Shown piece after piece: positions 12,495 through 38,681 of a DNA stretch of 42,313 bases (position 1 is its first letter; each line of letters opens with the position of its first letter). The notes under the pieces were generated by a model. That model made no database searches. It worked only from the letters and a program-made list of their open reading frames with translations, and was not told the DNA's origin. Position numbers and translations under genes: made by a program. The stretch is from Paludibacteraceae bacterium (GTDB taxonomy: Bacteria > Bacteroidota > Bacteroidia > Bacteroidales > Paludibacteraceae), in NCBI GenBank assembly GCA_017464475.1, contig JAFTZQ010000019.1, positions 1-42,313 of the forward strand. The letters are read 5' to 3'.

Positions 12495-13568
12495 ATGATA
12501 ACCATCCATCATCTCAGCAAAACATTTGTCAATCCTGACGGCTCGTCTCTGACCGTCCTCAAGGATGTAAACTGCACTATAGAAAAAGGCGAAGTGATCT
12601 CTATCATCGGTCCTTCGGGCACCGGCAAGAGTACGCTTCTCAGGGCCATCAACATGCTCGAACCGCCCACCTCGGGCGAGATTATCGTCAACGGCGAGAA
12701 CATCACCGCTCCCGGCTATCCGCTGGACAAGCTGCGCCGTAAGATGGGCATGGTCTTCCAGTCCTTCAACCTCTTCGAGCACATGACCGTGCTGGAGAAC
12801 ATCACCTACGCCCCGATGCAGCTGCTGAAACTGCCTGAAGCGCAAGCCAAGGAGGAAGCGATGGAACTGCTCAAGAAAGTAGGCATGGCGCAGAAAGCCG
12901 ATGTCTATCCGTCCTCCCTCTCCGGCGGACAGAAACAGCGTGTAGCCATCGCCCGTTCGCTTGCCATGCACCCGGATGTCATCCTCTTCGACGAGCCCAC
13001 CTCGGCGCTTGACCCGACGATGGTAGGCGAAGTGCTCTCCGTCATCCGCCAGTTGGCGAAAAGCGGTCTGACCATGCTGATTGTCACCCACGAGATGCGT
13101 TTCGCACGCGACGTGAGCACACGTATCTTCTTCATGAACGAAGGTATCATCTACGAGGACGGCACGCCCGAACAGATCTTCGAGCACCCCGTCCATTCGG
13201 CTACCAAGGCGTTTGTCAACCGCATCCAGAAACTCGTCTATGAGATTGACTCGGACGACTTCGATTACCTGCAGATCCACACCGGGCTCAACCAGTTCTG
13301 CCTCAAGTACAACATCACTGAGAAAGCCGAACTCGCTTATTCGCTTGTCAAGGAGATGCTCTTCACCCACATGCCGTCTTTCCGTCCGCTCACGCTGCGT
13401 CTGACGCACACCGAACTCTCCGGCGTGACGGCATTGGATTTCATGGTGGAGCACCTCAGCGACTCGCCTCTGACCGATGCCGCCCGTGCTTCCCTCCGTC
13501 CGCAGGTGAAGGAACTCATCGAAGAACCCACCACCCGCGGCTTCCGCATCAAACTGATTGTCAAGTGA
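12495..13568 (+). CDS. Amino-acid ABC transporter ATPase with extra C-terminal domain
   Basis: Energises the importer encoded just upstream. Residues 1-245 form a complete GlnQ/HisP-type ATPase: Walker [10 protein letters not shown] (39-47), signature LSGGQKQR, Walker [13 protein letters not shown], and the switch histidine in VTHEM. The full length is 357 residues, about 110 more than a typical polar amino-acid ATPase. The extension (from about 248, starting [16 protein letters not shown]) is mixed alpha/beta and ends [12 protein letters not shown] do not recognise it with confidence; its pattern is faintly like a histidine-kinase-type ATP-binding or anti-sigma fold, but the usual N-box is not evident. 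It may be a regulatory domain. Confidence 0.9.
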
Positions 13569-13764
13569 CGTACCTTCCAACCTCCGTGTTGCCGTTCACC
13601 GAGCGAAGAGCGACTCACAACCGACCGATGAGCGGCACAAGACCGAGAGACAAAAATCCGTTAACTTTCGCGCTCCTTCCCCAAATCTCAACAAAAATAC
13701 AACTTTTTGGGAGAAAGACCCATTTTTTTTCATCCCTCGGACACCTTTTGTCCGTCCTATGTAG

Positions 13765-13803: not shown

Positions 13804-14541
13804 ATGACTACAGACAAAGATTTACGTTTTCTCTCCTCTTGCGAAAATGAGGATCTCAAAGTGCTATGCGACATCCTGACGCATGACCGTTTGGGCAACA
13901 TCCGTATCACGGAGCAACTCACTTCCACCGACGAGTATAACCGCAGTTATCCGGAAGACATGTTGTTTCTCGTGCCGCAAATCAGCAATGAGTTACTGAA
14001 ATACGGTTCCAACACCCTCTCTACGTTCTGGAACCGCGAGCCGGATTCGTATGAAACCGTGCTTCGCCGCGTCTGCAAACAGATGGACGTCAAAATCTCC
14101 AAACACGACACCATCACCAAAATGGAGCACAACCTCTTGACTACGCTTTGCCAAGACACGCTGAACAAAATGTCCGAGCGCGAACTGAGGCTGCTTGCCA
14201 ACGAAAACGGCATCCCTGATAAGACGCTCACGCGCCAAGCCTTGACCGCTGCATTGCTCATGGCTGTTCGTACAAGCCGAGCCGTCCTCGCACGCATAGC
14301 CGCCCGCATAATTCAATATATAGTGGAGATCATCACCATCCGTGGTGTAGCGACTGCCGGTATCGAGACCGCTACACGTGCCGTGGGTAGCGCATTAGGT
14401 CCCATCGGCTGGATCGCTCTGGGCGCGTGGACGGTCTATGACATCACCTCGCCGGCTTACCGCGTCTGCATCCCTGCCGTGCTGCAAGTGGCATACATGC
14501 GCCTTAACCGTTTTGAACAAAAAGAAAGGAGTGCCGCATGA
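13804..14541 (+). CDS. YaaW/UPF0174-like protein
   Basis: Product of 245 residues, function unknown. The N-terminus (DKDLRFLSSCENEDLKVLCDIL) resembles the small DUF3944 module. The C-terminal half (about 150-235) contains alanine-rich helices and the block GPIGWIALGAWTVYDI ... AYRVCIPAVLQVAYMR, which I recall from the YaaW/UPF0174 family. Residues 163-212 are hydrophobic enough for membrane association. The middle (100-150) is helical with conserved-looking LCQDTLNKMSERELR. The stop codon overlaps the start of the M48 protease gene by 4 bp (ATGA), so the two proteins are translationally coupled and likely work together. Family assignment is from memory of the motif. Confidence 0.65.
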   Translation: MTTDKDLRFLSSCENEDLKVLCDILTHDRLGNIRITEQLTSTDEYNRSYPEDMLFLVPQISNELLKYGSNTLSTFWNREPDSYETVLRRVCKQMDVKISKHDTITKMEHNLLTTLCQDTLNKMSERELRLLANENGIPDKTLTRQALTAALLMAVRTSRAVLARIAARIIQYIVEIITIRGVATAGIETATRAVGSALGPIGWIALGAWTVYDITSPAYRVCIPAVLQVAYMRLNRFEQKERSAA

Positions 14542-15326
14542 AAGCTTCCCAGATCATGCACCCTGCCGATGCCAAGGCGTTGCAGGTGCTCAAACAGGCG
14601 CGTGGATTTAACACGCTGGTCAAGTACTTCATGGAGAAAGGCGACGAACGTATCATGCGCGGAGAGAACCTCGGTACAATGCTCCGTGTCACGCCGGACA
14701 ACTTGCCGAAGGTCTATACTGCTTTCCGCGAAGTGGTCAACCGCGTCGGCATCGACGAGCCGGAGTTGTACATCTACAATGACCCTGTGATGAACGCCTA
14801 TACGTATGGTGACACTCATATTTTTGTGGCTTTGAGCAGTTCATTGGTGGAACGGCTCACGTTGCCCGAACTCCAAAGTATCATGGCGCATGAGTGCGGA
14901 CATATTCTCTGCCGTCACACGCTCTACAAGACCCTGCTGTATATCATTGAAGACATGGGAAAAGCAGCGCAAGTTATCACCGAATCACTTGCTTTCCCCG
15001 CCTATTGTGCTTTGCAGTACTGGAGCCGTATGAGTGAGTATTCGGCGGATCGTTGTGCAGCGGCAGTAGTCGGCGAACAAGTCTTCCAGTCCGCTTTTCT
15101 CAAACTCACAAGCGGCTTGTCAGAAATACAAGGCAATCCGTATCAGTTGGTCGAACAGGGCAAGAAATACAACGAGATGAAGAACGCTTCTTTCTTTGAC
15201 CGTGTGCAGCAGGCGTGCCGTGAGATGTTTTACTCTCATCCCCAGAACTGCCAGCGCGCTTATGAAATAGACCGTTGGAAATCCTCTGCCAATTACCGCA
15301 ACTTCACCAAAGATTTTGAAAAATGA
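14538..15326 (+). CDS. M48-family zinc metalloprotease
   Basis: Product of 262 residues with the active-site motif HECGH (118-122) in MAHECGHILCRH and the third zinc ligand Glu167 in SEYSADR, the M48 arrangement. Upstream, YNDPVMNAYTYG and IFVALSSSLVERL match the substrate-edge strands of M48 peptidases. No signal peptide is present and only weak hydrophobic segments occur (about 128-160), so this resembles the soluble or peripherally bound M48 group rather than HtpX/Ste24 with four membrane helices. It overlaps the YaaW-like gene by 4 bp. Its target is unknown; a partner protein in the same cassette is one option. Confidence 0.88.
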   Translation: MKASQIMHPADAKALQVLKQARGFNTLVKYFMEKGDERIMRGENLGTMLRVTPDNLPKVYTAFREVVNRVGIDEPELYIYNDPVMNAYTYGDTHIFVALSSSLVERLTLPELQSIMAHECGHILCRHTLYKTLLYIIEDMGKAAQVITESLAFPAYCALQYWSRMSEYSADRCAAAVVGEQVFQSAFLKLTSGLSEIQGNPYQLVEQGKKYNEMKNASFFDRVQQACREMFYSHPQNCQRAYEIDRWKSSANYRNFTKDFEK

Positions 15327-15354
15327 AAAAAATATAGGAAATAATGCTCCGAGA

Positions 15355-15386
15355 TTTGGCTCTTTCAAAATTTTGTTGTATCTTTG
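15355..15386 (+). promoter_or_regulatory. Strong promoter for the structured RNA / downstream genes
   Basis: TTTG (15355-15358), 20 bases, TATCTTTG (15379-15386), a full match. It begins 29 bp after the M48 stop codon and fires into a region without protein-coding potential, with a start site expected near 15393. Confidence 0.82.
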
Positions 15387-15391
15387 CAACC

Positions 15392-15610
15392 GTTTTGGAG
15401 AGAAACCCAAAACTTGAAGCGAATTTACTTTTGACCCGACAAACAGAAATCTGGTACATTTCCACAGAGGGGCGAAGAGTAACCGTTTCCGCGTATATGA
15501 ATCTGAAGCAGATGTCATATATAGCGTGGAGCATTATTTCTCTTTGTTTCTGTCGGGTTTACCAGAGCCTTGTTTGCGACAAAGTTGAGTACTACTCTGC
15601 GCTTTTTAAT
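15392..15610 (+). ncRNA. Candidate structured RNA or long leader
   Basis: About 220 nt between a strong promoter and the acidic-protein gene, rich in pairing. Hairpin 1: GTTTTGG/CCAAAAC (15392-15398 with 15407-15413). Long-range stem: ACCCGACA (15434-15441) with TGTCGGGT (15551-15558). Inner hairpin: CGC-TATATGA-ATCTG (15490-15505) with CAGAT-TCATATA-GCG (15509-15526), closed by loop AAG. A further perfect pairing, CTGGTA (15451-15456) with TACCAG (15560-15565), crosses the long-range stem, so it is either a pseudoknot or an alternative fold. A T-run at 15603-15607 follows a weak GAGT/ACTC hairpin. The long rod with internal bubbles could be a 6S-like RNA; a cis-acting leader of the downstream gene is equally possible. 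It lacks tRNA, tmRNA and RNase P landmarks. Confidence 0.55.
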
Positions 15611-15621
15611 GATTTAATACT

Positions 15622-15981
15622 ATGAATGTCGATCAACTGAAAGCCAACTTAGTGCAAGCCATTTGCGAGGGCTATGCGGACTATTGTGTCAATTTCTGTG
15701 ACCAAGACGGAGACTCCGTGACGATTGACAGCGTCTATCTGGATGACGATGGCGATGTATGTTTAGAATCGAACGAAGAAGACAACAACGACTTCTCCGC
15801 GCAGGAGTTGTTAGACGAGTTGGATCGTTATAGCGACAAACGCTATGTCTATGTTTACAATGAAGATATAGATACGTCCTTCGATATAGACGAAGAGGAC
15901 GACGATAATGATTACGACAACCTCTGGTACATTGGCGATGACGGCAGTCTGTATATCGATATGTCGTATGATGATAATTAA
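15622..15981 (+). CDS. Small, highly acidic hypothetical protein
   Basis: Product of 119 residues that I do not recognise. About a third of the residues are Asp or Glu, concentrated in the C-terminal two thirds (SNEEDNND, DEEDDDNDYDN). There is no signal peptide and no membrane segment. The N-terminus (MNVDQLKANLVQAICEGY) is helical, followed by strands alternating with acidic loops (VTIDSVYLDDDGDVCLES, NLWYIGDDGSLYIDM). Such charge is seen in DNA mimics, immunity proteins and calcium or cation binders, but no choice can be made here. It lies directly after the structured RNA and 39 bp before the glycine-zipper gene, so it may belong to the same cassette. Confidence 0.7.
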   Translation: MNVDQLKANLVQAICEGYADYCVNFCDQDGDSVTIDSVYLDDDGDVCLESNEEDNNDFSAQELLDELDRYSDKRYVYVYNEDIDTSFDIDEEDDDNDYDNLWYIGDDGSLYIDMSYDDN

Positions 15982-16020
15982 CAAAACAAAATAAATTATT
16001 AACATTTAAATTTAATCATT

Positions 16021-16857
16021 ATGTTTTACAACCAACTTAAGAAAAAGGCTATAAAGAGACTTAAAGCCGCTCAAGAGGACTATTTGTTAATCGCTGAAAA
16101 TGCTAATAGTAAGGCATTGGAGCTATTCGCAGTCCGTAAATCTGCCGCTAAAGAAATTGAGCGCATTGAGATGTATATAAACATGTTAGCCAATTCACCA
16201 AAAGAATTTGCTAAAGATATAGCTCAAGTAAAATTGGAAATAAAGGATTTTAATAGAGCTGTTGAAATAGAAGAAGAAAGTGCCGCAGGTAATATCAAAG
16301 GCGCTGGCTCTGCTGTTGCAGGTACTGTTGCTGGTGGCTTGGTAGCTTCGTTAGGTCCAACAGCGGCAATGGCTATTGCTACTACTTTTGGAACAGCTTC
16401 TACTGGTGCCGCTATTTCGGCGTTGTCGGGAGCAGCAGCGACAAATGCCGCACTTGCATGGTTAGGCGGAGGAGCATTAGCAGCAGGTGGCGGAGGAATG
16501 GCTGCCGGTAATGCATTTCTTGCCTTAGCGGGTCCGATTGGATGGGGAATTGCCGGAATTTTGATTGTTGGCGGTAGTTCATTTGCCGCATATAAAAATA
16601 AACAGGCAGCGGAAGAAGCAGAGAAAGTCTCAAACGAGATAGTTGAAAAAGTAAGTATCTTACTTCCTAAATTAGAAGAAATGAAGCAATTAGTCGAGAA
16701 TACTAAAGAATTAAAAAAATCTTTGGACTTATCTCTTATTGTAAATACATATCCAAATGACTATAAAGAGTTTACAGAAGAACAAAAGAAGGTATTAGTT
16801 GCTTTAATTAATAATACAAAAGCAATGGGACAATTAATAAATAAACGTATTGCATGA
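16021..16857 (+). CDS. Glycine/alanine-zipper membrane protein between coiled coils
   Basis: Product of 278 residues. Residues 1-88 and 192-278 are charged helices suited to coiled coils. Residues 94-190 are nearly all Gly, Ala and small hydrophobics (GTASTGAAISALSGAAA, LAWLGGGALAAGGGGMAAG, GPIGWGIAGILIVGG), a glycine-zipper pattern able to form a membrane-inserted bundle. This core resembles bacterial proteins with an IFI6/IFI27-like hydrophobic module; that comparison is from memory. No signal peptide is present, so it would insert from the cytoplasm. The stop codon overlaps the next gene by 4 bp (ATGA). The gene is distinctly AT-rich compared with the 50% GC flanks, suggesting acquisition. 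Confidence 0.72.
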   Translation: MFYNQLKKKAIKRLKAAQEDYLLIAENANSKALELFAVRKSAAKEIERIEMYINMLANSPKEFAKDIAQVKLEIKDFNRAVEIEEESAAGNIKGAGSAVAGTVAGGLVASLGPTAAMAIATTFGTASTGAAISALSGAAATNAALAWLGGGALAAGGGGMAAGNAFLALAGPIGWGIAGILIVGGSSFAAYKNKQAAEEAEKVSNEIVEKVSILLPKLEEMKQLVENTKELKKSLDLSLIVNTYPNDYKEFTEEQKKVLVALINNTKAMGQLINKRIA

Positions 16858-18335
16858 AATCAAACATCTACGAAGACCAAATTATTGCCGGTGCTGTTCA
16901 GCAAGGAATTAAAGATAATGAAGAACTTCTTTTAAAGACTGTTGAACAAATTTGGAAAAAAGCTACACAATCGGCTATAGATGCTGACCGTGCTTTAGCT
17001 TCTGCTCGGGCGTGTGTTGAGAACGTAAGAGACTTCATCTCCGATCCTACTAAAATACTAGGAAATGTTACTACAAAGCATGGTGAAGTAGCAGAGCATA
17101 TACAAGTTGAAATAGGTAATGGTCAGAGGATAATGGAGGGTCTATCTCCTAATGCAAGTTTAGATGTTGGAAGGACTGCTCCTGAAGATTATCTTATTGA
17201 TGGTATCAAGGTTCAATCAAAATTTATTAATTCACCCAAGAAGACGCTTGAAGCTATCATAGAGCACTCCCATAAATATCCGTTTTTCACTCAGGAGGAA
17301 GGGTATTATCATTGCCCAAAAGATTATTATGAAGTTCTTGCTAAAATAGCAAAAGGGGAAAACGTAGATGGGTTAAAGGATAGTACAGTAAAGATTATCC
17401 GAGAAAAAATCCAGTTAATTGAAACCGAGACAGGAAAGTCTTTTACAGAGATTGTAAAGCCTGGAATTTCTTCTTATGATGAAGTTCAGTTAGGTCGTGT
17501 CGGGCAGACGTTAGATAAATATGACGAAGAATTCGTTCAGCAACGTACAGAACGACAGCGTCAGATAAACAATGAGAAAAAAGAGAAATTGGGTGAAGCT
17601 ACCCACATTACTGATCCGTCTTGGCAGGAGGCAGCTAAATACTCCGCTATATCTGCTGCAATACAAGGGTTAAGTGCTGCCTCTATTAAAATCTATCAGA
17701 AGATAAAAGGAGGAAAAAAGATTGGTGACTTCTCAATTGAAGATTGGAAAGAAGTAGGATATGACTTTACTATAAATGGGGCAAAAGGTGGAATTTCAGG
17801 TGCAGCAATTTATGGTATGACCAAAGTGGGAGGATTGTCCGCTCCTTTTGCTGGCGCAATAACCTCCTCTGTGATAGGTACTGCTGATTTATTATTCGCA
17901 TATAAAAACGGTGAAATAACATTAGACGATTTTGCTGATTGTATGTGTGCTCTAAACGTTGAAGCGGGCTTAGTAGCAGTAGGTTCGGCAATAGGGCAAT
18001 GCGCTATCCCTATTCCTGCGCTTGGCGCTATAGTTGGTATGGCTGTAACTAAATCTGCTATCATGGTCACAAAATATGTAATGGGAGAGCAAGAAAAAGC
18101 TTTAGCCCAAAAAATGCAGGTGATGTACGACCAAACCATCTCAAAGTTAGATAAAGAGTACCAACAGATTTGGTGCGCTATTGAAGACTATTATGTAGAG
18201 TTAGGTGGTCTTGTAAAAGCAGCGATGGACAAAAATGTAAATAGGAGACTAAAAGGAAGTATAAAACTATGCAAGATGTTGAATGTTATTGACCCGTTAC
18301 ATAACACTCACGAATTGGATGTATATATGGAATAA
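16854..18335 (+). CDS. Large accessory protein with PD-(D/E)xK-like motif and hydrophobic C-terminal domain
   Basis: Product of 493 residues, unnamed family. Residues 1-70 are helical. Residues 76-124 contain GEVAEH (77-82) followed by D112-YLIDGIKV-Q121-S-K123, the order and spacing (Glu in a helix, Asp, then QxK on a strand) of PD-(D/E)xK nucleases. Residues 150-245 continue with GYYHCPKDYYEVL and a charged helix. Residues 255-410 hold small-residue hydrophobic stretches (YSAISAAIQGLSAAS, GAKGGISGAAIYGM, APFAGAITSSVIGTADLL, IPIPALGAIVGMAVT), probably membrane-associated. The tail (415-493) is helical. The 4 bp overlap with the glycine-zipper gene implies joint synthesis. It is AT-rich like that gene. 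Nuclease activity is an inference from a short motif. Confidence 0.68.
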   Translation: MKSNIYEDQIIAGAVQQGIKDNEELLLKTVEQIWKKATQSAIDADRALASARACVENVRDFISDPTKILGNVTTKHGEVAEHIQVEIGNGQRIMEGLSPNASLDVGRTAPEDYLIDGIKVQSKFINSPKKTLEAIIEHSHKYPFFTQEEGYYHCPKDYYEVLAKIAKGENVDGLKDSTVKIIREKIQLIETETGKSFTEIVKPGISSYDEVQLGRVGQTLDKYDEEFVQQRTERQRQINNEKKEKLGEATHITDPSWQEAAKYSAISAAIQGLSAASIKIYQKIKGGKKIGDFSIEDWKEVGYDFTINGAKGGISGAAIYGMTKVGGLSAPFAGAITSSVIGTADLLFAYKNGEITLDDFADCMCALNVEAGLVAVGSAIGQCAIPIPALGAIVGMAVTKSAIMVTKYVMGEQEKALAQKMQVMYDQTISKLDKEYQQIWCAIEDYYVELGGLVKAAMDKNVNRRLKGSIKLCKMLNVIDPLHNTHELDVYME

Positions 18336-18344
18336 TCACTCGCC

Positions 18345-19247
18345 ATGTCCAAACTTCAGAAATGCCTGTATCTCATTGACCTCTTGGAACGGAGAGGGGC
18401 GATGAGTCTGAAAGAGATCAATGAGCATTACCGCTATTCGTCTCTTTATGACTGCGACATACAGCCGCGCACGTTCTTGCGGTACAAGGATTATATTCTG
18501 CTCAATTTCCCTTGTTACATCGAGTACAATGCCACCACGCAGAAATACTACTTGATCAAGAACGACTATAACAAAGGCAATCAGTCGCTCTATGAGTATC
18601 TGCTTTCGGCATTCCATATCGAAGGCATGTCCGAGTTGGCTATCAAGCACCGTGACCAGATCATGCTGACCGATTCGCCAACCGGTATTGTGAACGTGCA
18701 GCCTATTCTGGAAGCCATCGACGCAGGCAAAGGCATTGAGTTTGACTATTGGTCGTTCAACAAACAGACCAAGAAACACTTGGTGGCTATTCCGTATTTC
18801 TTGCGTACATGGGAAAGGCGTTGGTATCTGGTGGCAGAGCCGGACAACCATCACCACGGACAATCGGTCTTTGCTCTGGAGCGCATGGAGAACATAGCCC
18901 TTACGGAGCACGAAATGCAACCGTCCTCCAATATCTCCGTTACCGACTATTTCAAAGGTAGTTTTGGCGTCAATCACAGCGACAACCAACAGCCTGTCAC
19001 AATCCGTATCCGCGTCTATGGCACGCAGGCTGATTATGTGCGTGCATTGCCTATTCATGAATCGCAACGCGAGATAGAAAGAACCGACGAATGGACGGAC
19101 TTTGAAATGGATCTTGTGCCCTGCTATAATTTCTATCAGCAACTCCTCTGGCATTGCGAGAAACTGGAAGTCCTCTCTCCTTCCTCCGTCCGCGACGAAC
19201 TGCACAATATCATCCGCCAAACCCTCGCTTTGTACGAAAAAAAGTAA
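18345..19247 (+). CDS. WYL-domain transcriptional regulator
   Basis: Product of 300 residues. Residues 1-72 form a winged-helix DNA-binding region (LQKCLYLIDLLERRGAMSL ... PRTFLRYKDYI). Residues about 115-195 form a WYL domain with the signature RRWYLVAEP (W160, Y161, L162) preceded by KGIEFDYWSF and KHLVAIPYFLR; a C-terminal extension domain completes the usual architecture. WYL proteins sense ligands (often nucleic-acid species) and frequently control phage-defence or DNA-damage genes. It starts 9 bp after the nuclease-like gene on the same strand, so it is the obvious candidate regulator of the cassette. Its GC content is closer to the chromosome average than that of the two genes before it. 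Confidence 0.9.
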   Translation: MSKLQKCLYLIDLLERRGAMSLKEINEHYRYSSLYDCDIQPRTFLRYKDYILLNFPCYIEYNATTQKYYLIKNDYNKGNQSLYEYLLSAFHIEGMSELAIKHRDQIMLTDSPTGIVNVQPILEAIDAGKGIEFDYWSFNKQTKKHLVAIPYFLRTWERRWYLVAEPDNHHHGQSVFALERMENIALTEHEMQPSSNISVTDYFKGSFGVNHSDNQQPVTIRIRVYGTQADYVRALPIHESQREIERTDEWTDFEMDLVPCYNFYQQLLWHCEKLEVLSPSSVRDELHNIIRQTLALYEKK

Positions 19248-19282
19248 TGTCAAAAGTACAAATGCACAAAAATTAAAATCAA

Positions 19283-19408
19283 ATGACCACCTATATAGCC
19301 GATACGGAACATTATTCCGAGGTCGTTGCGCGGATGTGCAAAGCGAGACGGTTGTTATGGATAGCGACTGCAGACCTCAAAGACCTGTATGTCATGCAGG
19401 GAACGTGA
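19283..19408 (+). pseudogene. Truncated PLD-like gene (N-terminal remnant)
   Basis: An ORF of only 41 residues (MTTYIADTEHYSEVVARMCK ... LWIATADLKDLYVMQG) resembles the start of phospholipase D-like domain proteins, where a segment of the type LWIGTADIKDLYV precedes the first catalytic region. It ends in TGA at 19408 and no HKD motif can be found in any frame afterwards, so this looks like a gene whose remainder has been deleted. It lies 35 bp after the WYL gene and may once have been the last gene of the cassette. Identification rests on a short match and recollection. Confidence 0.55.
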
Positions 19409-19703
19409 CTTTTCCAAAAATTAGAAGATAGTTTTTTATTGTTTTCCTAAGTTATTGGACACTCATCCTAAATTCGTTGACAGCCGGAATATAAATTTTT
19501 GTCATGTCATTTTTTGTCACTTCTGCCACTTTTGCCATGTCATTTTTTATTAACAACAGGAATTTTTTAAGTTCGTTTCAAGATCGGTTCAAGCGGCAGA
19601 GGTTGCGCTGACGTCGCGCTGCTCTTGGGCAGATTTGGTATAACCGCCAAATCTTAAAAATAGGAATCTCTTTTTCATAAGAGTTATCTGTTATAAAAAG
19701 TGA
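19409..19703. other. AT-rich non-coding stretch after the accessory cassette
   Basis: About 300 bp with no credible gene. It contains two copies of CATGTCATTTTTT (19503-19515 and 19537-19549) around repeated GTCACTT/GCCACTT words, and an inverted repeat AGATTTGG (19631-19638) / CCAAATCT (19647-19654) with an 8-base loop. A TTGGACACTC word near 19456 might be a transposon-end remnant, without further support. The stretch fits a decayed boundary of a mobile or accessory segment. Confidence 0.4.
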
Positions 19704-33405: not shown

Positions 33406-34014
33406 TTAAATTATTTCGTTATTGTATGTCATTTTCTTGCCGAGGACAGTACAAAAAATCATGCGCATATCGTCAGCGAAGGAGTAGTGTTCCGCGTAAT
33501 AGCGGTTAATTCGCACCTTATCGGGGTAAATTACCTCGTCATTATATTTGATCGGATCTTCCACCGTTGCCAGCAATTCTTCTTCGTTCCGGTACTTGAG
33601 TGTAGCGGGTCCGGTGATACCCGGGCGCAGAGATAAAATGATTCGATCCTCGCCTTGTAACTGGTCTGCATACCCCGGCACATCAGGGCGCGGACCTACA
33701 AAAGACATGTTACCGATCAGCACGTCCCATAGCTCCGGCAGTTCGTCTAATTTGTATCTGCGCAGTTTGGCACCGAGCGGCGTTATACGACTTTCTCCGG
33801 CTACGCTGACGCTGCTGCCGTTATGCCCGACGCTCATGGAGCGGAACTTATGGCAGGCAAAAAGTTTGCCGTCTTTGCCCACGCGCTTCTGCACAAAGAA
33901 AACCGGTCCCGGCATGTACACTTTGATTAGTATTGCTACAACCAGCAATACCGGCCATAGGAAGAGTAGCCCGAAGAATGCCGTTACTCTGTCAAATATG
34001 TATTTTAGTATCAT
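33406..34014 (-). CDS. Undecaprenyl-phosphate sugar phosphotransferase (PglC/WcaJ type)
   Basis: Starts each repeat unit by moving a sugar phosphate onto undecaprenyl phosphate at the inner membrane. The 202-residue product is the minimal form: one N-terminal hydrophobic hairpin (FDRVTAFFGLLFLWPVLLVVAILI), then PGPVFFVQKRVGKDGKLFACHKFRSM, LRRYKLDELPELW with the catalytic DE pair, NMSFVGPRPDVP, and RPGITGPATLKYRNEEEL. The start ATG at 34014 overlaps the stop codon of the glycosyltransferase by 4 bp. With the adjacent aminotransferase it probably sets the first, amino-sugar, residue of the glycan. Confidence 0.95.
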   Translation of the reverse strand: MILKYIFDRVTAFFGLLFLWPVLLVVAILIKVYMPGPVFFVQKRVGKDGKLFACHKFRSMSVGHNGSSVSVAGESRITPLGAKLRRYKLDELPELWDVLIGNMSFVGPRPDVPGYADQLQGEDRIILSLRPGITGPATLKYRNEEELLATVEDPIKYNDEVIYPDKVRINRYYAEHYSFADDMRMIFCTVLGKKMTYNNEII

Positions 34015-34784
34015 GTCTGTACTCCTTTCCGATGAATATATACAATTTTCTTATAAGTTCCGCATACGAGATTGACACAGGTATGCCATAATGAGGGCAG
34101 AATAGCCATTCTCTCAGTCTCTCTGAATAGTATGTAGTGCCATTTAATCATCGTCACGATACTATGGTTGCTGACAGATCCGGCGCGTCCCTTGCGATAA
34201 GTAGCCAGATTTTCCGGCAACAGATAGCAATCTGCCTTTCGGCTCACTTTTAACCACATGGCGTAGTCGTTATTTTTCTTGATATCCTCAATCTGGATCA
34301 AACCTACTATCTGTGTATCGTACATAACGGTTAGGCATCCGGGCCAGCAAAAGGCATACATCCCGGCTTTAGTAATCCTCGAAGGACCGGATACGAGTAC
34401 TCCTGTGGGTTGCCCGTCGCTATCCATCTCCGAATAGCAGGTATAGGAGAAAGCATAGCAATGTTGGCGCATAAATGCCACTTGTTTCTCCAGTTTATCT
34501 GGTGTCCACAGGTCATCGGAGTCGAGGAAGGCAATGTATCGTCCTTTCGCTTCCCGGAGTGCTCTATTGCGCGTGAGTGCGGCACCCATGTTCCTGTCAT
34601 TGCGCATATACCGGATACGTGGGTCCGTGTAGGAAACCATCACTGCGGCTGTGTTATCCGTTGAGCAATCATCTACAATCAGCAATTCCCAAGCCGTATA
34701 AGTTTGAGCCAGGACGCTGTCAATAGATTCACGGATGAACTGTTCGCAGTTATATGTGGGCATTATGATGGATACGAGTTCCAT
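34011..34784 (-). CDS. Family 2 glycosyltransferase
   Basis: Inverting GT-A glycosyltransferase of 257 residues. N-terminus VSIIMPTYNCEQFIRESIDSVLAQTY, nucleotide-binding DDCSTDNT, and the metal-binding AFLDSDDLW. There is no signal peptide; the C-terminal part is basic. It overlaps both neighbours (4 bp downstream, 35 bp upstream), so translation is coupled. The sugar donor cannot be predicted. Confidence 0.93.
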   Translation of the reverse strand: MELVSIIMPTYNCEQFIRESIDSVLAQTYTAWELLIVDDCSTDNTAAVMVSYTDPRIRYMRNDRNMGAALTRNRALREAKGRYIAFLDSDDLWTPDKLEKQVAFMRQHCYAFSYTCYSEMDSDGQPTGVLVSGPSRITKAGMYAFCWPGCLTVMYDTQIVGLIQIEDIKKNNDYAMWLKVSRKADCYLLPENLATYRKGRAGSVSNHSIVTMIKWHYILFRETERMAILPSLWHTCVNLVCGTYKKIVYIHRKGVQT

Positions 34785-35817
34785 AACTATTAGTCAATTT
34801 CTTTATCTGTTCCTTGCAAAAGACGAATAACAGGCAAAGGATAATACTGCCTGCCGCATAGATGATCCAATTATAGCTATTATTTGAATCCAAATGCAGG
34901 ATTTCTAAGATGAGGTATGATATCGGTTTGAACATTAGCATATGTAAAAATAATACGTATATTGAATTTCGTCCTATATAAGTAAGTATATTCCAATGCA
35001 TTTTGGTATTTGAGACTAATAATTTAATAACACCATAAATTAGGAAAGTTCCGGCGCATGAGGTTATGATTAATGTCAGCCATTGAACGACATCAATATA
35101 TTCTTGCATTTCTATGCGGAAAGGAACGATTAAACAAGTACATACTATTCCGAAAAGAAGTATAAAGTGCCACCAACAAGGTTGCCATTTATCCAACCAT
35201 TTTTTTGTCAATGCTCCTATATAAATGAACACGCCGGCCATAAATATACGTGTGATAAATACTGTTTTAATAGTGGGAAACAGCATATGAATAAGCGTTA
35301 ATACTATGCAAAAACCAGCCATAATGGAAAATCCGTAAATCAGCAGTCTTGTCCACGATTCCTTATGTGTGGTCCTGTGGACAAACGCAATGATAAGATA
35401 ACTCCAAAACATGGATTGGATGAACCATGTAGGGCCTAAGAAAGGATCATCGTATACCTCTAAAAAACAAACGATTAGTACCAATCGAAGGAATAGTTCT
35501 TTAATAGAGAATAAGTGGGTTATTTTCGAGTGGATGCCATAAGTTATGATTCCCCATTGGAAAAGTACGTTATGTAATAACAAAGAAATTATTGCTGCAC
35601 AAATAAGTGGAATCGCTAATTTCTTTACCTTATTTATGACGAACGAGCGTGTGTTAGTCAATGAATCCTGATTAAGAAAATAACCGCTAAGGATAAAGAA
35701 TAACGGCATATGAAAACTATATATTAGTTTATATAGAATGTTTGGACAACTGGAATGTCCGATAACCATCAGAATTATTGCAATTCCCTTTACTATGTCA
35801 ATAACTTGGTTTCTCAA
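34750..35817 (-). CDS. Acyltransferase family 3 membrane protein
   Basis: Integral membrane O-acyltransferase of 355 residues with about ten hydrophobic helices, likely acetylating a sugar of the exported glycan. The N-terminus (RNQVIDIVKGIAIILMVIGHSS) and FHMPLFFILSGYF are typical. The best start is a TTG at 35815-35817, because the next ATG falls after the conserved first helix begins. The DNA is markedly AT-rich compared with both neighbours, suggesting recent acquisition or exchange of this gene. It overlaps the following glycosyltransferase gene by 35 bp. Confidence 0.9.
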   Translation of the reverse strand: MRNQVIDIVKGIAIILMVIGHSSCPNILYKLIYSFHMPLFFILSGYFLNQDSLTNTRSFVINKVKKLAIPLICAAIISLLLHNVLFQWGIITYGIHSKITHLFSIKELFLRLVLIVCFLEVYDDPFLGPTWFIQSMFWSYLIIAFVHRTTHKESWTRLLIYGFSIMAGFCIVLTLIHMLFPTIKTVFITRIFMAGVFIYIGALTKKWLDKWQPCWWHFILLFGIVCTCLIVPFRIEMQEYIDVVQWLTLIITSCAGTFLIYGVIKLLVSNTKMHWNILTYIGRNSIYVLFLHMLMFKPISYLILEILHLDSNNSYNWIIYAAGSIILCLLFVFCKEQIKKLTNSYGTRIHHNAHI

Positions 35818-35837
35818 GAATGTCGATTAATATATTA

Positions 35838-36569
35838 TCAAAAAAAATCTTTTTGGATCGCACGCAAGCTCTCTTTGCTCCATTGTGATTTTTGGGCCTG
35901 ATTGATTAATCCCGTGCTAATGTTGCCTGTGTTGGCAATAAGCAGAGTAGGGATATAGCGTACTTTCAATTGCGCTGCGCGTACCAATTCAGCCATGTAA
36001 ATCTCTTCCCCATACATGAATGTCGGATAATGTAGTTCGGGGTATTGGTCTATAAAAGCCTTCGTAAATAGCATAAACGAGCCGTGCCCGGCATAGATTT
36101 CACAAGCCGGATAGACCTTTGAGTTTTTATTCTTCAATAAGTGGAGCGCATGGTACATCCGATAAATCCAGGTACTACTATAAATACTATTCCAAATAAA
36201 GAAGTTGCGCTTCGTCGGGCGAGAGAGCATGTGCGGGTTTTCATGACGGTCTATCTTTTCGGTGTAGATATCCGGAGCCGTCCATCCTATACCCCTTGTA
36301 TCTATACGCAGCAACTGCTCAAAGAAATCGGGCGCTAACTCCAGATCGACATTCGAGATGGAGACGTAGTCGTATTCCTTTGCGTACTTGTTATATATAG
36401 GAAGCGCACCGCCCAGATAGCCTAAGTTCTCTTTTCCGTTATCTGCTACCTGAATATCCACCGCCATTTGTCCTTCTACAACTTTTGCAGCGCGATGAAC
36501 AGACTCCATGAATGCTTGGAGTTCCTTGTCGGAATGATATGTAACACATATGAGCAGTATCTTTTTCAT
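35838..36569 (-). CDS. Glycosyltransferase, rhamnosyltransferase-like (family 2)
   Basis: Product of 243 residues with a GT-A-like N-terminus (ILLICVTYHSDKELQAFM), VADNGKENLGYLGGALPIYNK and SNVDLELAPDFFEQLL as the donor/metal region, and a C-terminal YGEEIYMAEL acceptor-side motif. It lacks the classical DDGSTD block, like other family 2 enzymes of the WbbL/rhamnosyl type. The start overlaps the preceding gene's stop by 4 bp. Specific sugar unknown. Confidence 0.87.
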   Translation of the reverse strand: MKKILLICVTYHSDKELQAFMESVHRAAKVVEGQMAVDIQVADNGKENLGYLGGALPIYNKYAKEYDYVSISNVDLELAPDFFEQLLRIDTRGIGWTAPDIYTEKIDRHENPHMLSRPTKRNFFIWNSIYSSTWIYRMYHALHLLKNKNSKVYPACEIYAGHGSFMLFTKAFIDQYPELHYPTFMYGEEIYMAELVRAAQLKVRYIPTLLIANTGNISTGLINQAQKSQWSKESLRAIQKDFF

Positions 36570-37465
36570 CTCGCGATATAGGTTTTAATGAAATATACTG
36601 CAATCCACCAAAATGATATCGGCATAAGCAGTATCGCCGCTATCGTCCATCCAGTATCTAACAATAAGATGCTTTTTGCGATTTTAGTGCTTCTGTATTT
36701 GAACATACGGAGCATCCAAATCCAGAGTTCTTCGGAAATACGGAATACCCATAAGAATTTATATGTTCCTTTCAGTTGCTTAGCCATAGACGCCATAAAT
36801 GCAAAGTTTCCCTCTTGCATACGGACATATGAACCTGTTTTTCCTTGTTCGTTTTGGTAATATATGGCACCACAATAATTGGGTATAACCGCTGTTTTCG
36901 GGCGTTGCTTATAACATAATATATGCCATCTCCAATCCTCCCGGAACCGGCAAGAATTTTGGAAGGTTAGCCTATGCTTTTTTATGAAATCAGTTTGATA
37001 CAGAAAACTATGAACAGGAACAGAAGCTCCTAATCCCCAGTGTACCAATATCTTGTATAAATTCAATTTGACTGATTGCGGTTTTGTACGATGTCCGTTA
37101 CTATTTTCCGAGCAGTACGCCGTATAACTGATATCCAGATTCTCGCCTTCCATGAGTGCTACTTGCCGCGCCAGTTTCTCTGGCTCCAACCAGTCATCGG
37201 CATCCAGAAACTGGATATACTCTCCTTGTGCGTGTTTCAATCCCAGATCGCGTGCGCTGGCGCTACCGCCGTTGATTTTCTGGAGCATATGAACCCGTCC
37301 GTCCTGCAACGCAAGGTTCGCTGCTACTTCGGCTGTGTTGTCCGTAGAGCCGTCATCCACGATAATACACTCCCAATCCTCAAGCGTTTGGGCTTGAAGT
37401 GAGGCAATGGCTTTGGGCAGAAACAGAGCCTGGTTATAACATGGTATGATCACAGACACTTTCAT
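36566..37465 (-). CDS. Family 2 glycosyltransferase
   Basis: Product of 299 residues: VSVIIPCYNQALFLPKAIASLQAQTL, DDGSTDNT and IQFLDADDWL are the GT-A nucleotide- and metal-binding blocks. Late motif CRFREDWRWHILCY and a C-terminal hydrophobic helix (TIAAILLMPISFWWIAVYFI) suggest membrane association. It overlaps the polymerase gene by 32 bp at its start and the next glycosyltransferase by 4 bp at its end. Confidence 0.93.
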   Translation of the reverse strand: MKVSVIIPCYNQALFLPKAIASLQAQTLEDWECIIVDDGSTDNTAEVAANLALQDGRVHMLQKINGGSASARDLGLKHAQGEYIQFLDADDWLEPEKLARQVALMEGENLDISYTAYCSENSNGHRTKPQSVKLNLYKILVHWGLGASVPVHSFLYQTDFIKKHRLTFQNSCRFREDWRWHILCYKQRPKTAVIPNYCGAIYYQNEQGKTGSYVRMQEGNFAFMASMAKQLKGTYKFLWVFRISEELWIWMLRMFKYRSTKIAKSILLLDTGWTIAAILLMPISFWWIAVYFIKTYIAR

Positions 37466-38681
37466 TTTCTGTAGCGTTTAGATAGATTACTAAATACATA
37501 GACAGCCAGAACAAAGGCAGCATACTAAGCGTTCTTGAAAACAGGCTGTAAATAAAATACTGAATGAAAAGCAAGGAGGCAAAGAGGTATCGTTTGTCTT
37601 TCTCTGCTAATCTGAAAGCCACAATCAGCATATACCCAATCAAGACCAAATAGATTATTCCTCCAAAAACACCTGTACCCAAGAAGGCCTCCAAGACGCT
37701 GTTATGTACATATTTGCCTTGGATAAAAAGGGACGAACCGATAAAGGGGTTGTCCATTATATTCTCAAAGGCATGCTGGTATAGCACATCCCGTCCGCTA
37801 GTCACGCCGGCATCCATACTGTTAGGATCATAGATGGAGTTGTACAAGCGGTCCAAAGCTTGATTGTCAAACGAGATCAATATGTCGTTTAGTATTGGCA
37901 GAAGCAGTATGAATAATCCGCCTAAAACAGGCAATCCGATGAGGATTTTCACCTTGTGTCCGTTCATGTACAGGAAAGCAATAAAGCAAATAATGAGTGC
38001 GACAAGTGCTCCTCGTGAACCGGCTGCTATAGAGACGAATAACCCTATGACGATGGCAAAAGCGCTCAGCAGTTTATGCCATAGCCGGATGTTACGTTGG
38101 TAGAATAGCGCAATCGCCATAAGCGTAATAGTAGTACCTAAATGTCCAAAAGCGATAGTATCCATGGATGCGTTTCCCATGAACCGTCCGTCCGGACCGA
38201 TATAATCCAATGCTTTGCCGGTGACAATATAGGACAAACTAATCAATCCCATGGTTAGAAAGATGAGCAGAATGGTTGTATTCAGTTTGCGTAAATCCAT
38301 TTCTTCCCATCGGAAGAAAGCGAACCCGTAGAATGGCACAATTGCGGCGTTCGCGTATAGAAAAACGGCAGCAAAAGGATTTGTCACAATCTCTTGTTTC
38401 ACTCCTGCCAGCATAAAATCATAGTACATTCGGATGAAGTAAATCCAGATGAAGAGTTGAACGAGGAATGAAGCGGTTCCTATGCGTCTAAACTTCACTT
38501 TTCCTTCGTGCATTTGCAAGGTAATAATAAAAAGGAACGCTATGAAGATCAGTACATAATATACGCTCTTCATCATAGCGACATTATTCCCTTCCGGCAG
38601 GTAAGTAAACCCGTCGTAAGCAAACAGCAATAGCAGAATGAGCCATTGCAAACGTCCTATGAGGCGGTTTCTATCCAACAT
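37434..38681 (-). CDS. O-antigen ligase/polymerase (Wzy-like) membrane protein
   Basis: Polytopic inner-membrane protein of 415 residues with about ten to twelve hydrophobic helices. The large loop between late helices (HAFENIMDNPFIGSSLF ... YVHNSVLEAFLGTGVFGG) carries the HNS-type motif of the Wzy/WaaL family. As no ligase acceptor is defined, polymerase of the capsule or O-antigen repeat unit is the most likely role. It overlaps the start of the following glycosyltransferase by 32 bp and lies next to the flippase-glycosyltransferase pair, as is typical of a Wzx/Wzy locus. Confidence 0.85.
   Translation of the reverse strand: MLDRNRLIGRLQWLILLLLFAYDGFTYLPEGNNVAMMKSVYYVLIFIAFLFIITLQMHEGKVKFRRIGTASFLVQLFIWIYFIRMYYDFMLAGVKQEIVTNPFAAVFLYANAAIVPFYGFAFFRWEEMDLRKLNTTILLIFLTMGLISLSYIVTGKALDYIGPDGRFMGNASMDTIAFGHLGTTITLMAIALFYQRNIRLWHKLLSAFAIVIGLFVSIAAGSRGALVALIICFIAFLYMNGHKVKILIGLPVLGGLFILLLPILNDILISFDNQALDRLYNSIYDPNSMDAGVTSGRDVLYQHAFENIMDNPFIGSSLFIQGKYVHNSVLEAFLGTGVFGGIIYLVLIGYMLIVAFRLAEKDKRYLFASLLFIQYFIYSLFSRTLSMLPLFWLSMYLVIYLNATENESVCDHTML

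Follow-up and report, generated by a model that had tools for sequence, protein, structure and literature searches.

A candidate accessory anti-phage locus of a Paludibacteraceae bacterium, with a conserved jukA/M48/WYL shell around an exchangeable cassette

Six plus-strand genes at positions 13804..19408 of a contig from a Paludibacteraceae bacterium (GCA_017464475.1, contig JAFTZQ010000019.1, positions 1 to 42,313 of the forward strand; this whole stretch of 42,313 nucleotides is referred to as the window) raise the question of (i) whether they form one accessory system, as a reading made from the sequence alone had proposed; (ii) which of them are constant and which are exchanged between relatives; and (iii) what such a system might do. 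The reading that we prefer, and to which we assign a probability of about 0.58, is that they constitute an accessory anti-phage locus, in which a conserved shell of jukA, M48 protease and WYL regulator genes, controlled by the WYL protein, encloses an effector cassette that is exchanged as a block. The features of the locus, with lengths in amino acids (aa) and the evidence in brackets, are:

13737..13754, + strand: inverted repeat TCGGACACCTTTTGTCCG within the jukA promoter region, candidate operator for WYL control (proposed from sequence)
13804..14541, + strand: JukA homologue (YaaW/DUF3944), 245 aa, proposed sensor (PADLOC, Pfam)
14538..15326, + strand: M48 metallopeptidase, 262 aa (Pfam, HEXXH motif, match to 3cqb)
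15392..15607, + strand, ends set by eye: conserved structured RNA (fold z-score, homologues, consensus pairs)
15622..15981, + strand: acidic protein, 119 aa, isoelectric point about 4.1 (relatives G600 and G552; ratio of nonsynonymous to synonymous substitution rates, dN/dS)
16021..16857, + strand: PDC-M09A, predicted glycine-zipper protein, 278 aa, cassette gene 1 (PADLOC, 1.1e-101)
16854..18335, + strand: PDC-M09B, nuclease-like, 493 aa, cassette gene 2 (PADLOC, 3.8e-149)
18345..19247, + strand: WYL/WCX regulator, 300 aa, which closes the constant shell on the right (Pfam; genus relatives)
19284..19431, + strand: start of a truncated PLD-like gene (intact homologue in two relatives)

The layout given by the sequence-only reading, six genes on one strand closed by a WYL regulator, was confirmed, and both of the ATGA overlaps of 4 nucleotides (nt) that it had noted were read in the sequence, at 14538 and 16854. 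Family searches bore out its YaaW-like, M48 and WYL assignments. The first protein matches the PADLOC model JukA (1e-44, residues 3-239) and Pfam DUF3944 (6.3e-11). The second matches Pfam Peptidase_M48 (3.5e-22) and 3cqb, a 'probable protease htpX homolog' (1.1e-7); its HEXXH motif reads H118-E-C-G-H122, accompanied by E167, and is unchanged in all three aligned sequences, while a crude hydropathy scan of this protein found no strongly hydrophobic segment. The regulator contains both a WYL (7.8e-10) and a WCX domain (1.8e-9). The sequence-only reading could call no known system to mind, and here it was mistaken, JukA and PDC-M09 both being PADLOC models. Its proposal of an accessory, defence-type locus fared better: JukA, PDC-M09A and PDC-M09B are all in PADLOC, and JukA was detected in only 13 of 358 genomes of the family (E≤1e-3; the match in G007, at 9e-4, is probably spurious). 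In a sample of the order, JukA was found in one of 344 genomes, the window's own.

Nine of the 13 JukA-bearing family genomes, the window's own included, belong to its genus. In all eight genus genomes with a close JukA (the window, G612, G600, G627, G610, G552, G550 and G644), we found the order jukA, M48, cassette, WYL on a single strand. Protein identities between the window and the other seven are 84-97% for JukA, 88-95% for M48 and 92-97% for WYL. JukA and M48 adjoin in nine of nine genus genomes with JukA, with an overlap of 4 nt in the eight close loci. The ninth, G142, has a diverged JukA (44% identical), M48 (51%) and a distant WYL protein (32%) in another gene order, with relatives of PDC-M09A and, weakly, PDC-M09B upstream of JukA-M48; a HATPase-domain gene followed by a 396-aa gene lies between the two pairs (L038:10632-12762). 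On an uncultured Bacteroidales contig (L053) the order is PDC-M09A/B, BnzB-like, acidic gene, JukA, M48, WYL, with identities to the window of 67% for WYL, 58% for M48 and 45% for JukA. Because the WYL gene accompanies JukA-M48 in eight of eight close genus loci and adjoins M48 in L053, it belongs with that pair. The shell genes are maintained by purifying selection, since dN/dS against the window is low: 0.06-0.12 for JukA (apart from 0.34 in the comparison with G612, a very close relative, where changes are few), 0.06-0.11 for M48 and 0.08-0.11 for WYL. These ratios, computed for the three shell proteins and the acidic protein, are rough, as some dS values exceed 1. A second M48 gene of the same type (about 35% identical) was seen in two genomes, at G000:C28:82536-83300 (L043) and G533:C2:29416-30189 (L044), next to genes for 83-aa and 163/164-aa proteins and with no JukA within the fetched stretch.

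The cassettes that lie within this shell are 2.6-4.0 kb long, and their main genes differ from locus to locus:

Window: acidic protein, M09A and M09B
G610: BnzB (1.9e-108) and M09A (1.6e-62)
G600: acidic protein, BnzB-like (1.2e-32) and a protein with a hydrophobic C-terminus
G612: weak BnzB-like (8.9e-8), a second JukA and a protein with a hydrophobic C-terminus
G550: BnzB-like (5e-32) and small proteins
G627: a second JukA, a protein 36% identical to the weak M09B relative of G142 (itself without a PADLOC match) and an unassigned protein
G552: acidic protein, an EEP-like, nuclease-like protein (9.5e-4, under the Pfam cut-off) and an unassigned protein
G644: PDC-M40B-like (1e-15) and a protein with a hydrophobic C-terminus

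Thus, PADLOC matches in the cassettes of the seven relatives comprise BnzB in four (one of them weak), JukA in two, and PDC-M09A and PDC-M40B in one each. The cassette parts themselves recombine, M09A being paired with M09B in one locus and with BnzB in another. In all eight loci the GC fraction of the cassette (0.33-0.39) is lower than that of jukA-M48 (0.49-0.54) and WYL (0.47-0.49). The statement of the sequence-only reading that the two central genes are more AT-rich than the flanks holds for the window, with GC at 0.36-0.41 in these genes, 0.51-0.57 in the left flank (9-15 kb) and 0.44-0.50 in the near right flank (19-21 kb), beyond which it is about 0.54. Another AT-rich stretch, with GC as low as 0.36, lies outside the locus at 34000-38500. 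Cassette genes are all co-oriented, the last of them ends 1-11 nt before the WYL start in seven of the eight close loci, and the frames of shell and cassette are open. Three of the last cassette proteins share a near-identical hydrophobic C-terminus ending in SFLI (L160:13400-13502, L161:13990-14076 and L166:6300-6370), and the likeness extends into the spacer before WYL.

At the borders of the cassette, six of the seven relatives lose homology to the window at 15300-15335 (G610 at 15607), and all seven regain it at 18333-18345, the WYL start codon lying at 18345. Within the gap, homology is confined to the acidic gene (G600 and G552) and to 216 nt of the M09A gene, 72% identical between the window and G610; taken over all cassettes, the common DNA consists only of the leader next to M48, the RNA element, the acidic gene and these 216 nt. 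G612 carries a different cassette at the same chromosomal site, between flanks 92-97% identical to those of the window. Here, the two sequences differ at 104 of 1318 sites within 14701-15330 and 18345-19044, limits that were chosen after looking, as against 111 of 3694 elsewhere (p 1.8e-12). When a constant 1 kb to either side of the cassette is taken instead, the counts are 118 of 2018 and 97 of 2994 (p 1.3e-5); with three bins left out, they are 99 of 1300 and 80 of 3396. The raised substitutions fit homologous recombination in the M48 and WYL genes, without proving it, and such recombination is the most likely way in which cassettes would be exchanged. In G550, the opening 22 nt of WYL occur twice, at L165:12874 and again at the true start farther along, 13419, and this duplicated start is plausibly a scar of such an exchange.

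The module itself moves: the other six close relatives hold the locus beside genes other than the window's. A search of 30 genomes for FBPase gave matches in 19; of the eight matches that were fetched, five have GlmS or SDR at most about 1 kb from FBPase and lack the module (in the other three, neither GlmS nor SDR was seen near FBPase). The explanation that these are simply core genes, conserved and syntenic in all close relatives, which the sequence-only reading had held up as the outcome that would speak against it, is rejected by these five relatives. A viral scan with PDC-M09B alone found nothing, and a scan with a PDC-M09B alignment gave seven viral contigs, one of them weak, and one short unverified phage scaffold. 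JukA occurs in one viral contig, and M48 and WYL in none; there is thus no sign of the whole module as viral cargo, though some of its parts occur in viral contigs.

Regulation by the WYL protein is suggested by the inverted repeat TCGGACACCTTTTGTCCG, which lies in the jukA promoter region, 10 nt upstream of a TAATTTTG box, and is matched once in the window where 0.03 matches are expected. Allowing at most one mismatch, TCGGACAC-N-TTTTGTCCG was found upstream of jukA in all eight close shell loci and in none of the other 17 of 25 genomes. At up to two mismatches, these 25 genomes contain 22 sites, comprising 12 at shell loci and 10 two-mismatch sites elsewhere; a reversed control pattern gave six. 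We infer that the repeat is the operator of the WYL regulator. According to PMC9122601, WYL repressors that bind inverted repeats, such as BrxR, control defence islands. A second copy of the repeat stands just after WYL, before another gene, in four of the relatives (L161:15002 and L163:7780, and after WYL in L164 and L166). In G600 it precedes a DUF3658 gene, and the genes that follow it in G610, G552 and G644 share, by eye, an MVKNW start. As the repeat copies precede further genes, they suggest that a second operon may be under the same regulator.

The cassette pair of the window is a unit known from elsewhere. Both proteins match their PADLOC models nearly full length, in the order A before B and with the 4-nt overlap. 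In the best 80 of 190 relatives of PDC-M09B, which come from several phyla (profile scan of genome contigs) and to which the following counts out of 80 refer, PDC-M09A lies at most 200 nt upstream in 75; frame picking missed it in four of the remaining five and detected neither protein in one. Since A lies close upstream of B in 75 of 80 loci, PDC-M09A/B is a widespread two-gene unit. It is sparse nearer to the window: PDC-M09B was found in four of 150 family genomes (strong in the window's own and G085, weak and shorter in G142, marginal in G063) and in two of 344 genomes of the order sample (its own and one marginal). It is also present on 60 plasmid records, 46 of them from Klebsiella, two of which (L009 and L010) place the pair about 3-4 kb from tellurium resistance (ter) genes. 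Dynamin-family genes were seen near the pair on Lactococcus plasmids (L046 and L049) and near JukA on an Acinetobacter plasmid (L136); as a general partner of PDC-M09, dynamin was rejected, a relative being present in one of the 80 loci. JukA lies just downstream of the pair in three Paraburkholderia/Castellaniella contigs (L093, L099 and L101), with WYL genes in the flanks, which is a separate association of JukA with PDC-M09. The linkage of the pair with WYL, named by the sequence-only reading as a mark of a system, turned out to be facultative, because some WYL-like gene is present in the fetched flanks of 16 of the 80 loci, by a profile partly seeded from neighbours. WYL-like frames number 14 of 594 within 3 kb of PDC-M09 and 5 of 611 beyond (p 0.04), an enrichment to which we give no weight, as four of the neighbours seeded the profile.

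The nuclease-like character that had been noted for the 493-residue protein is retained with a reservation. PDC-M09B has no Pfam match above the cut-off and no credible solved relative in the PDB (matches at E 0.018-0.47 were taken as chance). Residues E81, D112, Q121 and K123 are invariant in 10 of 10 aligned homologues obtained by plain homology searches, and E-D-QxK is present in 80 of 80 of a larger set, selected by patterns that include E81 and Q121/K123. The E-D-(E/Q)xK arrangement is one that we take to be the signature of PD-(D/E)XK nucleases; it is N-terminal, and hydropathy places a hydrophobic segment in the C-terminal half, so that PDC-M09B may be a membrane-linked PD-(D/E)XK-like nuclease.

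Two further elements lie between M48 and this pair. Family searches gave no significant match for the 119-aa acidic protein; its gene is 93-96% identical in three loci (the window, G600 and G552) whose cassettes are otherwise unrelated, the G600 and G552 proteins being 93-95% identical to that of the window, its dN/dS is 0.03, and it is 36% identical to the acidic protein of L053. The RNA, which the sequence-only reading had listed in the locus, was substantiated: 15425-15572 folds far better than its shuffles (z -4.37; -4.21 for the G610 copy), a TATCTTTG box stands just upstream (15379-15386), a T-run stands at the end, and a consensus of seven sequences has 67 pairs, 7 of them with changes on both sides. 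We rejected it as a known family, there being no relevant Rfam match. Near full-length relatives are present in G610 and, the window's own genome apart, in five of the 131 genus genomes sampled, and short partial matches in four further genomes; among the close loci, the element is confined to the window and G610, with a trace in G644. In four of those five genomes (L199-L202) it is divergent to a gene for 441-445 aa (the homology of the G606 copy to the other three was judged by eye), with no JukA in the stretches fetched there, so that it counts as an independent accessory element. The truncated PLD-like gene that had been noted after WYL was also borne out, as about 119 nt align with the beginning of a gene that G627 and G550 carry in intact form, 173 aa long (Pfam PLDc_2, 8.8e-15 and 4.2e-14).

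Compared with known systems, the parts of this locus are known or catalogued, and what is new is the organisation JukA-M48-[exchangeable cassette]-WYL, of which the literature searched holds no description, as far as titles and abstract openings show. The Juk (jumbo phage killer) system comprises JukA and the pore-forming effector JukB and acts on jumbo phages at the early infection vesicle. As reviewed in PMC13282480, Juk pairs a sensor, JukA, with diverse effectors. The likeness is that a JukA homologue is the first gene of our locus; in contrast, an M48 protease follows jukA here, and an exchangeable cassette, with the WYL regulator behind it, takes the place of the effector. PDC-M09, in which PDC stands for phage defence candidate (as used in PMC12753311), is represented by both proteins, nearly full length and in their usual order, but elsewhere the pair usually occurs without JukA, M48 or this WYL, whereas here it lies between M48 and WYL; PDC-M09 is not named in the literature searched. 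As with BrxR, there is a WYL regulator and an inverted repeat in a promoter, and the second repeat copy in four relatives recalls the two R-boxes of pEFER (PMC9122601); here, however, the regulator gene ends the operon, and binding is only predicted. Likeness to Bunzi is limited to matches to the BnzB model in the cassettes of four of the seven relatives and in L053; their partners are different genes, and no BnzB match was obtained in the cassette of the window itself.

Several observations weigh against a single anti-phage locus with an exchanged effector cassette. No JukB-named PADLOC match was obtained for the six window proteins or for 20 from relatives, 15 of which are encoded in genus cassettes, the JukB content of the library being unchecked, and no M48 cleavage site or substrate common to the cassettes was found. 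In none of the three g20 genomes with JukA does an M48 gene follow it directly, although two of them have a distant M48 (25% identical) as the third gene downstream; likewise, no M48 was found near JukA on the four plasmid records examined. The dS values of jukA and M48 correlate weakly (0.27), those of jukA and WYL at 0.63 and those of M48 and WYL at 0.47. G142 has no repeat site and L053 only an imperfect copy. The comparison of the window with G612 also shows raised substitutions at two places that do not adjoin the cassette, 12501-12600 and 19345-19544. The nuclease fold proposed for PDC-M09B rests on a motif, the nuclease-like protein of G552 is under the Pfam cut-off, and some cassette proteins have no family match. 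Finally, near the 80 PDC-M09 loci, many of whose flanks end with the contig, we found JukA in four, a close M48 in one and a weak M48 in one more; the cassette may therefore not depend on the shell.

This last point leads to the main rival, which holds that JukA-M48 is a complete Juk-like system, and that the slot before WYL collects self-sufficient defence systems sharing the regulator. The suggestion of the sequence-only reading that two units had been brought together was right, but it had divided them wrongly, as WYL goes with JukA-M48, and the zipper/nuclease pair is exchangeable cargo. PDC-M09 pairs without the shell, on plasmids and chromosomes of many phyla, fit such independence, as does the constant adjacency of JukA and M48 in the genus, and by eye a promoter-like box stands just after M48 in five of the eight loci (the window, G600, G627, G610 and G644). 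However, the tight, co-oriented junction of the last cassette gene with WYL in seven of the eight, the renewed pairing of JukA with PDC-M09 in the Paraburkholderia/Castellaniella contigs, and the second JukA genes inside two cassettes speak for closer integration, and we regard two independent systems as somewhat unlikely. A toxin/antitoxin-like locus, or one of inter-strain competition with polymorphic toxins and an acidic immunity protein, would account for polymorphic cargo, for nuclease-like and membrane-type proteins and for the small acidic protein. Yet no delivery domain is present among the Pfam matches (signal peptides were outside the search), several PADLOC matches are to defence models, and an acidic gene that hardly varies next to three unrelated cassettes is wrong for a specific immunity protein; this explanation is highly improbable. 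We give still less credence to a decaying mobile-element remnant without current function, which the truncated PLD-like gene and the differing flanks in six of the seven close relatives might suggest, but against which stand the open frames of shell and cassette and the dN/dS of 0.03-0.12 for JukA, M48, WYL and the acidic protein (jukA against G612 excepted).

Under the anti-phage reading, the WYL protein would keep the operon low through the inverted repeat until, on infection, JukA recognises a phage structure, by analogy with the JukA of the Juk system. The unvarying intermediate step may then fall to M48, which, speculatively, would most likely cleave or remove a partner and so license the installed effector, and the cassette would execute the response, PDC-M09A as a glycine-zipper membrane protein and PDC-M09B as a membrane-linked PD-(D/E)XK-like nuclease. 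A bolder version, in which JukA sensing activates M48, M48 releases whichever cassette is installed and WYL sets the dose, we consider unlikely, and more doubtful than the two-system alternative; were it true, recombination in M48 and WYL would swap a species' weapon while sensor, trigger and regulation stay unchanged.

The locus links a JukA sensor family, candidate effectors (PDC-M09, BnzB-like and PDC-M40B-like) and an M48 protease, which have so far been separate. The window and G612 are a natural allelic pair in which mainly the effector block differs, and therefore whether one sensor-protease pair drives unrelated effectors is directly testable. Furthermore, the genes found in the cassette slot of other genomes provide a list of likely defence effectors, several of them without family assignment.

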